From contig JAKLEB010000001.1 of assembly GCA_022711765.1 (NCBI GenBank), forward strand, positions 1,222,694 to 1,286,693: a DNA stretch of 64,000 nucleotides, written 5' to 3'. The stretch is from Candidatus Krumholzibacteriota bacterium. Its GTDB lineage: Bacteria; Krumholzibacteriota; Krumholzibacteriia; LZORAL124-64-63. The position numbers and the translations under genes are program-made. Of the stretch, positions 26,132 to 29,684 are shown piece by piece (position 1 is the first letter of the stretch; each line of letters begins with the position of its first letter). The notes beneath the pieces were generated by a model. It was not told the origin of the DNA and searched no databases. It saw only the letters and a list, made by a program, of their open reading frames with translations.

Positions 26132-26210
26132 GCCGTTCTCCTGGGGACCATCCGGTTCGAGCGGTCGCCGCGGCGCGAACGCCGCGGATCCGACTTCTAG
26201 ACCCCATCAT

Positions 26211-26233
26211 CGGCAGACTTGCCGTTTTTCTTT
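26211..26233 (+). terminator. Intrinsic terminator with T-tract, plus-strand orientation
   Basis: CGGCA-GACT-TGCCG is followed by TTTTTCTTT on the plus strand. It is the only canonical U-tract terminator I found in this GC-rich window. Both flanking genes (Hpt and NYN) are on the minus strand; on that strand it is a hairpin just past the NYN stop codon but without a U-tract after it. Confidence 0.55.
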
Positions 26234-27437
26234 AGTCCTTGTCGCCCGCACCCGATACCGGCGCCCCGCTCGCCTTGTCGGGCATCCGCGTTCCCGCGGA
26301 CTTCTTGGCGGCCTTCTTCGCGGACTTCTTGGCGGATCTGCCGGGGGCCGCGGTCCTGGGCGCTTTCTGGTCGCTCTCGGCGGTTGCGCGACGGGGTCCG
26401 GTCTTCCTGCCACCTCGCTTGCCGGCCTTCTTCTGGGCCCTCGACGCCGCTGGTTCGCCGCCCCCGGCTCCGCGCGGCGCGCCGCCGGTCTCCGCCGGGA
26501 AGGCAGGCGCCGCCGGCGGCGGAGCAGCCCGGTCCAGAGCGCCGGGGTCTCCGCTCGCCGGCGCCGACGTCGCGGCGGACAGCGGCGCGACGCGCGGCTC
26601 GCCTCGGTCCTCGCGGCGCTGCCGGTCGCGCCGCCGCCGCCGCGTCTTGCCGGACGGCGACTCGACGCCGGGCTCGCCCTTGCCGAGGCCGATCACGACG
26701 AGCGTTCCGCCCGCGCGGCTGTCCCGCTCCACCTCCAGGAGACCGCGATCCCGCGCGTCCTCGAGCAGCTCGCCGAACGTGGTGTAACCGTACTTGGTCT
26801 CGTTGAACTCCGGCTGCTTCCGCTTCATCGTGTCCTTGATGAGCGACGAGTACAGGACGCCGCGGCTCTCCTGGAGCAGGCTCTGCGTGGTCTGCAGCAG
26901 GAAGTCGAAGAGGCGGCGCATGTCCTGCGGGACCGAGGACACCTTCTCGCTCAGCTTGGTGACGGCGGTGTGGTAGATGTCGTCGTAGAAGATGAACTCG
27001 TCGCAGTTGGCGATCAGCAGATGGCTCGAGCTGCTGCGCACGCCGATGCCGATCACGCGCTTGTCGTTCTCGCGCAGCTTGGACACGAGCGGCGAGAAGT
27101 CCGAATCGCCGGAGACGATCACGAAGGTATCGATGTGGCTCTTCGAATAGCAGAGGTCGATCGCGTCGACGACCAGCCGGATGTCGGCGCTGTTCTTGCC
27201 GCTGATCTTGGGAGCGGGCACCTCGATGAGCTCGATGGCGGCTTCGTGCAGCGGCGTCATGTGCTCCTTGTAGTAGTGCCAGTCGGCATACGCTCGCTTG
27301 ACGACCACCTTGCCCTTCTCCAGCACGCGCTGCATCAGCAGGCGCACGTCGAAGCGCTGGCGCGAATCCCGGGCGCCGAGCGCGACGTTGTCGAAATCGA
27401 TGAAGAGCGCGAGATTTCTCTCGCCCGATTGGCTCAT
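26232..27437 (-). CDS. NYN-domain (LabA/PIN-like) protein with basic C-terminal tail
   Basis: The 401-residue protein has an N-terminal NYN domain (about residues 7-165) with acidic residues in LALFIDFDNVALG, DIRLVVDAIDL and IVSGDSDFSPLV, as in the LabA-like/PIN ribonuclease fold. A winged-helix or OST-HTH-like region follows (about 180-265, with KYGYTTFGELLEDARDRGL). The last roughly 120 residues are Lys/Arg/Ala-rich and probably disordered, ready to bind nucleic acid. It probably acts on RNA; the target is unknown. AAAGGAG lies 6 nt before the ATG. Confidence 0.8.
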   Translation of the reverse strand: MSQSGERNLALFIDFDNVALGARDSRQRFDVRLLMQRVLEKGKVVVKRAYADWHYYKEHMTPLHEAAIELIEVPAPKISGKNSADIRLVVDAIDLCYSKSHIDTFVIVSGDSDFSPLVSKLRENDKRVIGIGVRSSSSHLLIANCDEFIFYDDIYHTAVTKLSEKVSSVPQDMRRLFDFLLQTTQSLLQESRGVLYSSLIKDTMKRKQPEFNETKYGYTTFGELLEDARDRGLLEVERDSRAGGTLVVIGLGKGEPGVESPSGKTRRRRRDRQRREDRGEPRVAPLSAATSAPASGDPGALDRAAPPPAAPAFPAETGGAPRGAGGGEPAASRAQKKAGKRGGRKTGPRRATAESDQKAPRTAAPGRSAKKSAKKAAKKSAGTRMPDKASGAPVSGAGDKD

Positions 27438-27573
27438 GAATGACTCCTTTGCTGGACTGCCGGTCGGACCTCGGGGTGGTTGCCCGGTCCGGCGCGGCCA
27501 CCATAGGCCATAATCCGGCACGCGACTAGAAGAACTGTGGCGCCGCCGGCGCCGATCCCGCGGAGCGAGTGGC

Positions 27574-28725
27574 ATGCCCGAGAACCTCACGGGGGCCGAC
27601 CTGCGGCTCCTGATCCAGCGCGTCTTCCGGCCCGGTCCGGCCGACCGGGGACTCCTGATCATGGTCGACCTGCCCGACCCGCACCGCCCCGACAACGAGG
27701 GCTGGCGGACCCGCCGCCGGCTCGCTGCCGACTGGGCCGCCAAGCTGGCGGCCGAGCGGACCGCGCTCGGCCTCGAGCGGGTGACGCTGGCCTGGTATCC
27801 CAATGTCGGGGGGAACAACGCCGATCTGCCGGGGGCGGCGGTGCCGGGCGACCCCCACTGGGTTCCCGACCTCGCGGAGGACCTCGCCGGCCGCCCGGCC
27901 GAACCGTTCCGCGACCTCCTCGCCCGCCATTCGCTCGTCCTGGCGCCCACGGAGCTGTCGGCGACCGCGCCGCTCAAGCTCGCGGCGCGCGACGGCGGAT
28001 TCCGGGCCGCGACCATGCCGGGGTTCTTGCCGAGCATGATCCCCGCGCTGCGGCTCGACTACGACGAGATCAACCGGCGCGTCAAGCTGCTGAAGGACCT
28101 CTGCGACGCGTCCGAACGCTGCGTCGTCGTGACCGAGACCTCGGCCGGCCTCCATGAGCTCGTCCTGGATCTGCGTCACCGTCGCGGGCATGCCTCGGGC
28201 GGATTGTTCCTTGCCAACGGCGTGGCCGGCAACCTCCCGTCGGGCGAGGCCTATATCGTCCCGTACGAGGGTGAGATCCCGGGCGACCCGAGCCTGACGG
28301 CCGGGGAATTGCCGGTGCAGCTGGGCGGCGAGCTGGCCCTGCTGGAGATCTCCGGCAATCGAGTTCGAGACGTCCGCGGTCGCGGCCGGCTGGTCGACCT
28401 GGAGCGCGAGCACTTCGCGCGCGAGCCGGCCTACGCCAACCTCGCGGAGCTCGGTCTGGGCGTGCTCGGCGACTTCGGCCTGCAACCGACCGGGAGCATC
28501 CTGCTGGATGAGAAGCTCGGACTGCACATCGCCTTCGGCCGCAGCGACCACTTCGGCGGGTCGGTCGGTCCGTCGGCGTTCTCCTCGCCGTCGGCGGTGG
28601 TCCACCAGGATCGCGTCTACATCCCGGAAACCCAGCCTCTGGTGCAGGTCCGCGAGGTCCGGCTGGAAGGGGAAGAGGATGCCCGAGCGATCATGGTCGA
28701 CGGGAGCTACGTCGGGGTCTTCTGA
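27574..28725 (+). CDS. M29-type metallo-aminopeptidase
   Basis: The 383-residue protein matches thermophilic aminopeptidases (AmpS/T type, family M29) in its metal-binding C-terminal part: Glu in GNLPSGEAYIVP, a second Glu in ANLAELGLG, His in LGLHIAFGRSDHFGG, and a His-x-Asp in AVVHQDRVYI. These enzymes remove N-terminal residues with two metal ions and are cytosolic; there is no signal peptide here. Overall similarity is weaker than for a textbook member. GGAGCGAG precedes the ATG. The gene diverges from the NYN gene and is followed by a gene-free stretch. Confidence 0.75.
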   Translation: MPENLTGADLRLLIQRVFRPGPADRGLLIMVDLPDPHRPDNEGWRTRRRLAADWAAKLAAERTALGLERVTLAWYPNVGGNNADLPGAAVPGDPHWVPDLAEDLAGRPAEPFRDLLARHSLVLAPTELSATAPLKLAARDGGFRAATMPGFLPSMIPALRLDYDEINRRVKLLKDLCDASERCVVVTETSAGLHELVLDLRHRRGHASGGLFLANGVAGNLPSGEAYIVPYEGEIPGDPSLTAGELPVQLGGELALLEISGNRVRDVRGRGRLVDLEREHFAREPAYANLAELGLGVLGDFGLQPTGSILLDEKLGLHIAFGRSDHFGGSVGPSAFSSPSAVVHQDRVYIPETQPLVQVREVRLEGEEDARAIMVDGSYVGVF

Positions 28726-28748
28726 AACCACGGACCGAGAAAAGGGCC

Positions 28749-28801
28749 GGGGTCCCACCCCAGTAGCTCTCGCCCAAAGCTACCGAGAAATCTGGGACCC
28801 C
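28749..28801. repeat. Nested hairpin element, copy 1
   Basis: The outer stem is GGGGTCCCA (28749-28757) with TGGGACCCC (28793-28801), 9 bp and perfect. The inner stem is GTAGCT (28763-28768) with AGCTAC (28778-28783), closing the 9-nt loop CTCGCCCAA. The same loop recurs in copy 2 with different stems. Confidence 0.75.
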
Positions 28802-28815
28802 AGTCTGAGATGGGT

Positions 28816-28877
28816 GGCCGGGAACCAACCCTCGACGACTCTCGCCCAAAGTCATCCGGGTTTTGATGGCCCCGGCC
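28816..28877. repeat. Nested hairpin element, copy 2
   Basis: The outer stem is GGCCGGG (28816-28822) with CCCGGCC (28871-28877). A middle stem AACCC/GGGTT (28827-28831, 28858-28862) and an inner stem GACT/AGTC (28837-28840, 28850-28853) close the loop CTCGCCCAA. The stems differ in sequence from copy 1 but pair at the equivalent places. Confidence 0.7.
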
Positions 28878-28910
28878 ATGGACTCTGATTCAAACACATA
28901 ATCTTCAGAT

Positions 28911-28942
28911 CGATTCCGGTAAAGATATATTTACTAAAATCG
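28911..28942. repeat. AT-rich hairpin
   Basis: CGATT (28911-28915) pairs with AATCG (28938-28942), and GTAAA (28919-28923) with TTTAC (28930-28934), around a GATATA loop with a 3x3 internal loop. Function unknown; it may belong to the same element as the twin hairpins. Confidence 0.4.
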
Positions 28943-29231: not shown

Positions 29232-29684
29232 CTATCGATAGAGGCTCTTGACACTACTCCACGTCGTGGATTCCGTCGGGACCACGGCGCAGAAGAAGTC
29301 GACCGCGGTGGTCAACTCGGATTCCTCGATCGCGCTGCCGAACGGCGCCGCCGTATGGAAGGTGACGTCGACGTGATACTGGCCCGGAGGCGCCGTCACG
29401 GTCCACTCGCCGTAGAACTGGAATCGCTGGGTGGGGTAGGTGTCCTGGGCCCGCGTCAGGGATCCCGCCCAATCGATGACCTCGAGGGGATTGCCGCGAT
29501 CGTCCGAGAGGACCACGGTGTAGTCGAGGTCGAGCTGGAACACCGCCGCGCGGAACCGGACGATGATCTCGGCCGACCAGCCGAGACAATCGGCGGAGGC
29601 GTCGAGATCCGTCAACCTGGTCGCGGACGCGGCCGCCGGAAGCAGGAGCGACGCGAGCAGGGCCGCAAGGAGCATCTTCTTCAT
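29232..29684 (-). CDS. Small secreted protein of unknown function with C-terminal WxxVKxL motif
   Basis: The 150-residue protein has a signal peptide (MKKMLLAALLASLLLPAAASA) and then about 125 residues that look all-beta, with two widely spaced cysteines (DCLGW and FFCAV). I do not recognise the family. Its last residues, PTESTTWSSVKSLYR, share the pattern PxExx(T/S)W(T/S)xVKxL(F/Y)x at the very C-terminus with the two unrelated secreted proteins at 50968 and 53628. It has its own promoter and terminator and lies in an AT-rich islet. Confidence 0.75.
   Translation of the reverse strand: MKKMLLAALLASLLLPAAASATRLTDLDASADCLGWSAEIIVRFRAAVFQLDLDYTVVLSDDRGNPLEVIDWAGSLTRAQDTYPTQRFQFYGEWTVTAPPGQYHVDVTFHTAAPFGSAIEESELTTAVDFFCAVVPTESTTWSSVKSLYR

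Follow-up and report, generated by a model that had tools for sequence, protein, structure and literature searches.

Two hairpins with a common loop

The question raised by this locus is whether two neighbouring palindromes with one core form a structured RNA, belong to a palindromic DNA repeat family or reflect a chance duplication. We analysed a window of 64,000 nucleotides from a Candidatus Krumholzibacteriota genome, in which positions 28745-28877 hold two nested palindromes, both containing the 13-mer CTCTCGCCCAAAG as read on the plus strand. The initial annotation had described a 13-base core shared by two neighbouring elements on different but paired stems. Both copies of the core are present, and all of the stems (GTAGCT/AGCTAC, GACT/AGTC and the outer stems, including GGCCGGG/CCCGGCC) fold on the plus strand as described. 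Across the 3.96 Mb genome there are two occurrences of the 13-mer, both at this locus, and none of its reversed-pattern control.

Folding gave a z-score of -5.50 for the minus strand, with 0 of 200 shuffles equally good, and a much weaker -1.69 for the plus strand. The minus strand folds better because U-G pairs lengthen the inner stems. On this strand the loop, annotated as 9 nt, is reduced to 5-7 nt, (U/A)GGGCG(A), as the stem continues through C-G, U-A and U-G pairs; the core, here CUUUGGGCGAGAG, consists of the loop and its closing pairs. The module of about 61 nt comprises a 10-bp outer stem, an asymmetric internal loop, a 9-bp inner stem and a GGGCG loop flanked by U/A and A. The features of the RNA are as follows.

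28740..28900, minus: predicted transcript of about 160 nt, 28900 -> 28740, placed from the promoter and terminator positions; 5' end +/- 5 nt
28816..28877, minus: hairpin 1 (5' hairpin of the RNA), 62 nt; covariance model match of 74.2 bits, fold, covariation
28851-28839, minus: loop core CUUUGGGCGAGAG of hairpin 1
28745..28805, minus: hairpin 2 (3' hairpin, likely also the terminator stem), 61 nt; covariance model match of 69.8 bits
28779-28767, minus: loop core CUUUGGGCGAGAG of hairpin 2
28763-28747, minus: terminator-like site in hairpin 2, tail CCCTTTTCTC
28740..28743, minus: T-tract 3' of hairpin 2, UUUU here, likely RNA 3' end, from sequence
28767-28779 and 28839-28851, plus: the two copies of the 13-mer CTCTCGCCCAAAG, from sequence

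The hairpin pair is more than chance. The exact 13-mer pair was found at 70 nt spacing in congeners G041 and G042, which disposes of the chance duplication that the annotation had allowed for; a further congener (G043) carries one exact and one variant copy.

Covariation and strand

Covariation was assessed on 31 related hairpins, 30 of them distinct. Standard pairs filled 90% of the pair cells, and 13 of the 22 pairs showed changes on both sides. There were 63 cells changed on both sides, compared to 20.2 in shuffles. The signal collapsed once the pairing partners were slid, and it was similar on a MAFFT alignment that had not been fitted to the structure. No change was seen across the 30 distinct hairpins in the GGGCG loop or in the AG that follows it on the 3' side. 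The U-A pair under the loop was replaced by C-G in one genus, and the stem is therefore maintained as a stem.

Beneath the loop, a U-G wobble (columns 31-40) was retained in 29 of the 30 hairpins, with C-G in the remaining one. This pair would read as an A-C mismatch on the plus strand; its retention and the T-tract fix the strand as minus. Based on the conserved U-G pairs, the fold z-score and the T-tract, we put the RNA on the minus strand, from about 28900 to 28740, opposite to the strand on which the annotation had read the elements.

Distribution in the phylum

We searched 80 genomes of the phylum, 38 from the same family (Krumholzibacteriia) and 42 from seven other families. The annotation had proposed a covariance model search of related genomes, and this search was positive: model R1, built from nine hairpins and counted at E up to 0.1, matched 28 of the 38 family genomes and none of the 42 genomes from the other seven families. 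The broader model R3, with other loci counted in, matched 31 of 38 and again 0 of 42. Because only 68 to 145 first-look candidates were scored per genome, these absences are not firm. Since most of the genomes are MAGs, a lacking hit or a duplicated contig (G053 shows two copies) should be interpreted with caution.

Among the 31 positive genomes, 24 carry the main form and five (G040, G055 and G070-G072) a hairpin at a second conserved place; two (G037 and G052) have same-loop hairpins at other loci only. No clear match was obtained in G046, G047, G058 and G061, four genomes with flagellin and a completeness of 90% or more, indicating that the RNA is not essential for flagella.

A single hairpin per RNA is the rule in most genera, and twins are confined to the source genus. 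Across that genus first hairpins had a mean identity of 0.71 and second hairpins 0.79, compared to 0.68 for the two hairpins within one genome; the differences are small. Same-position hairpins are more alike across the genus than the two within a genome, so the doubling probably predates the species.

Several candidate matches were set aside. Viral contigs gave 26 matches to a 15-mer, none with the hairpin. A Bacteroidales match from the genome-wide pattern scan (L097) had no hairpin and was taken as chance, and three others (L131, L133 and L134) were dropped, having the outer stem alone in common.

Gene order and the terminator

The main-form hairpin lies beside the same gene in 23 of the 24 genomes, and this convergent neighbour is thus shared by nearly all of them.

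27574..28725, plus: conserved protein of 383 aa, encoded convergently to the RNA and outside it; its place beside the RNA belongs to the conserved gene order

The 383-aa protein is found family-wide at 56-76% identity and had no match in Pfam, NCBIfam or PDB sequences; by eye only, it resembles M29-type aminopeptidases. In one genome (G044, locus L139) about 300 bases separate the RNA from this gene, compared to some 40-100 elsewhere.

A T-run of at least 4 follows the hairpin in 22 of the 24 orthologous loci. In most relatives it has 5-8 U, and the hairpin is followed by CCCCTTTTTTT or a similar sequence; a good T-tract is absent in congener G043 and in G060. In most genera one module and its U-tract make up the whole structured part, which would act as its own terminator.

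Such a layout could also be read as ordinary intrinsic terminators of the minus-strand gene to the right, without an RNA function of their own. That gene ends at 29232, and hairpin 2 with its T-tract would fit. However, the loop and closing pairs are invariant, which a terminator does not need, and a conserved promoter-like block lies between the upstream gene and the hairpin. In several genera the upstream gene, encoding a radical SAM protein, is divergent (on the opposite strand and pointing away), and the hairpin is therefore not its terminator or tail. We consider the plain terminator very unlikely.

In G040 and G055 the 383-aa gene is directly beside the radical SAM gene and the RNA is absent there; the hairpin is located elsewhere, close to another radical SAM gene. 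In G055, and likewise in the genus of G070-G072, the hairpin lies between radical SAM and methyltransferase genes. The U-tract, the divergent upstream gene and the promoter-like block are the sequence signs expected of a stand-alone unit, and we hold an sRNA gene on the minus strand to be very probable.

These data also bear on what kind of element this is. Twin palindromes could also come from a family of palindromic DNA repeats, whether REP-like, carried by transposons or serving as protein-binding DNA sites, and a small number of dispersed copies do occur in some relatives, such as the three in G036 beside the main one. Set against this are the two copies at one locus in the whole genome, the conserved gene order at the main locus, and U-G pairs and a U-tract that are strand-specific, leaving repeats highly improbable. 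The annotation had offered structured RNA or palindromic repeat; the former is upheld by covariation, the terminator tail and the promoter-like block, and the latter lacks support in this genome, where the copies number two. The annotation had already rejected attC sites, and an attC or integron site is further argued against by the gene order, which is conserved, by the terminator tail and by the covariation of the RNA. A real hairpin is thus encoded on the minus strand, covarying, restricted to the family, and accompanied by a terminator tail and a conserved gene order.

A putative sigma-28-type promoter

The promoter-like block was examined in an alignment of 22 loci anchored by hand on CCGA. 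The sigma-28 pattern is TAAAGTTT-N11-GCCGATAA, and two corresponding boxes were located upstream of the RNA.

28907..28914, minus: putative sigma-28-type -10 box ATCGATCT; placed by anchoring 22 loci and by the best score against a fixed external consensus
28926..28933, minus: putative sigma-28-type -35 box TAAATATA, spaced 11 nt from the -10 box; 22/22 loci keep its AA at a constant spacing

In this alignment the AA at -20/-19 within TAAA is invariant and little else upstream is as strong; the boxes take the form TAAA-N10-12-CCGA at near-fixed spacing. The block of G057 reads taaagttt-N11-ACCGATAC. With the external sigma-28 consensus, the best site fell at the expected place in most loci, though it was weak in some and did not reach significance in each; in the source genome alone the site is weak, with a fraction of 0.13 of shuffles reaching its score. 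A site of this type is found some 70 to 130 nt upstream of many of the family's flagellin genes.

Our first reading was an ECF-type promoter (GAAAC-N16-CGT). It gave way to sigma-28 since all 22/22 loci keep the AA of TAAA whereas the CGT positions vary; ECF is a possible but less likely reading. Sigma-28 (FliA)-type control of the RNA is, on these alignments, the probable reading.

Hairpins with the same loop at other loci

UGGGCGA-loop hairpins of the same build were found at several further places in the family. In G049, G051, G052, G054 and G057 they are flanked by a sigma-54-type response regulator gene and a small conserved gene; in one genus, four genomes have them ahead of a ferredoxin-like gene (weak DUF1636), and in two genomes they are close to a PAS-like gene. 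Two more were found in G036. Because the models that detected these loci score the core, loop identity there is partly selected for. Four matches were outside the model training set (G038:C223, G049:C331, G051:C144 and G054:C191), and in two of the four (L155 and L156) the minimum-energy fold lacked the nested hairpin. No sigma-28 site before these other hairpin loci scored above shuffles. A hairpin in a flagellin leader of G036 was not conserved (1 of 30 flagellin loci) and was rejected.

A long stem, GGCAGCACC...GGTGCTGCC, stands directly before the hairpin in L038, L047, L130 and L153 (one genus) and in L132, and the two may form a two-part leader RNA. In the four genomes of the one genus this stem is upstream of the ferredoxin-like gene; in L132 (G057) it is followed by the small conserved gene that belongs to the response-regulator locus. 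Several also show the motif CGGTGGGGGA upstream.

Mechanism and candidate partners

As a whole, the observations are best explained by a flagellar-regulon sRNA family whose invariant loop is recognised by a common partner that is probably a protein; judged from sequence, we hold this to be somewhat likelier than its alternatives combined. The RNA would be transcribed from the sigma-28 (FliA)-type promoter alongside late flagellar genes and would, less surely, act in trans without Hfq. The GGGCGA loop would then be displayed to the common partner, with an RNA-binding protein likelier than an antisense target, and the tandem copy in the source genus would double the binding sites per molecule. 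The shared-partner mechanism itself is put forward tentatively. A protein is favoured over an antisense target because the hairpins at other loci carry the same loop, not a complementary one.

Loop-seeded antisense sRNAs occur in other bacteria, and the main rival is that the same sRNA gene uses its loop as an antisense seed, pairing with UCGCCC(U/A) in target mRNAs beyond the flagellin leaders. An invariant 7-nt loop on a varying stem and a terminator tail would suit such a seed, and sRNA pairing without Hfq is known in Campylobacter (PMC4626219). However, apart from the non-complementary loops at other loci, loop pairing with flagellin leaders showed no excess over shuffles or control loops, and a full-length complement was not found elsewhere in the genome. 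We regard an antisense seed as rather unlikely.

Hfq (Pfam PF17209) was detected in control genomes and in 0 of the 38 family genomes. CsrA governs flagellin in many bacteria; it was found in 32 of the 38, with csrA close to flagellin genes in several, and together with sigma-28-like control this would be consistent with a CsrA decoy RNA of the CsrB/RsmZ type. The invariant loop is, however, GGGCGA and not GGA, and the few GGA triplets in the rest of the RNA (0-4) do not keep a fixed position. The RNA is therefore not a canonical Csr decoy, and we give that explanation hardly any weight.

Two neighbourhoods are also of note. At G000:C1:137797-145596, csrA adjoins five flagellin genes in a row, which hints that CsrA and flagellin form a control unit in this genome. 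Two genes from the RNA, a conserved neighbour encodes an NYN-domain protein with a weak OST-HTH/LOTUS match and a basic tail (L137, +1349 to +2539 in RNA orientation; about 26200-27450 of the window, minus). Since NYN/OST-HTH-type proteins can bind RNA, this neighbour is a candidate partner.

Carried further, the shared-partner mechanism would give a family-wide post-transcriptional system in which an RNA-binding protein recognises GGGCGA-loop hairpins in several transcripts and is titrated by a flagellum-coupled sRNA, doubled in the source genus. We consider this extended version unlikely as it stands.

Relation to known RNAs and significance

Rfam 15 gave no match in the window at the gathering score, chance-level matches only at the locus at E up to 5, and none at 14 related loci at E up to 0.5. 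Three known groups share elements of the design. CsrB/RsmZ-type decoy RNAs offer one loop motif on repeated hairpins, as do the one or two hairpins per RNA here, which differ in having no GGA in the loop. Alphaproteobacterial AbcR and 'cuckoo' sRNAs carry hairpins, tandem in some, with an invariant loop; theirs is C/U-rich (anti-Shine-Dalgarno), compared to GGGCGA here. ANTAR antiterminator RNA has two small hairpins with conserved loops before a terminator, paired and acting in cis, whereas one long hairpin is enough in most genera of the Krumholzibacteriia.

A close likeness in kind is to sRNAs of Campylobacter, a host without Hfq. CjNC1 and CjNC4 are sigma-28/FliA-dependent, paralogous and end in a terminator stem-loop (PMC4626219), and CJnc170 (FlmR) is likewise a sigma-28/FliA-dependent small RNA (PMC11187230). 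The likeness is that of a FliA-dependent sRNA, predicted only in our case, in a host in which Hfq is absent or, here, was not detected; we claim no sequence relation. The Campylobacter sRNAs have a conserved target-pairing region before the terminator stem-loop, whereas the conserved part here is the apical loop of the hairpin. In E. coli the sigma-28 sRNAs UhpU, MotR, FliX and FlgO are UTR-derived, in a host with Hfq (PMC10578931); the Krumholzibacteriia RNA is an intergenic gene in a family in which Hfq was not detected. By analogy, and with no relatedness to any of them claimed, it would fill the same regulatory slot as the FliA-dependent sRNAs of Campylobacter and E. coli.

Our literature search found no paper on small RNAs of the phylum Krumholzibacteriota, and the RNA represents an undescribed family in a phylum without small-RNA papers in that literature. 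Given the strength of its covariation, experimental work on it starts from safe ground, with strand and ends now predicted. The invariant loop offers a direct bait for what replaces Hfq or Csr decoy RNAs in this lineage, and the doubling of the hairpin in a single genus amounts to a small natural experiment in varying the number of binding sites. If the titration reading were true, flagellated bacteria without recognisable Hfq would possess an analogue of the Csr system that works through another recognition code.
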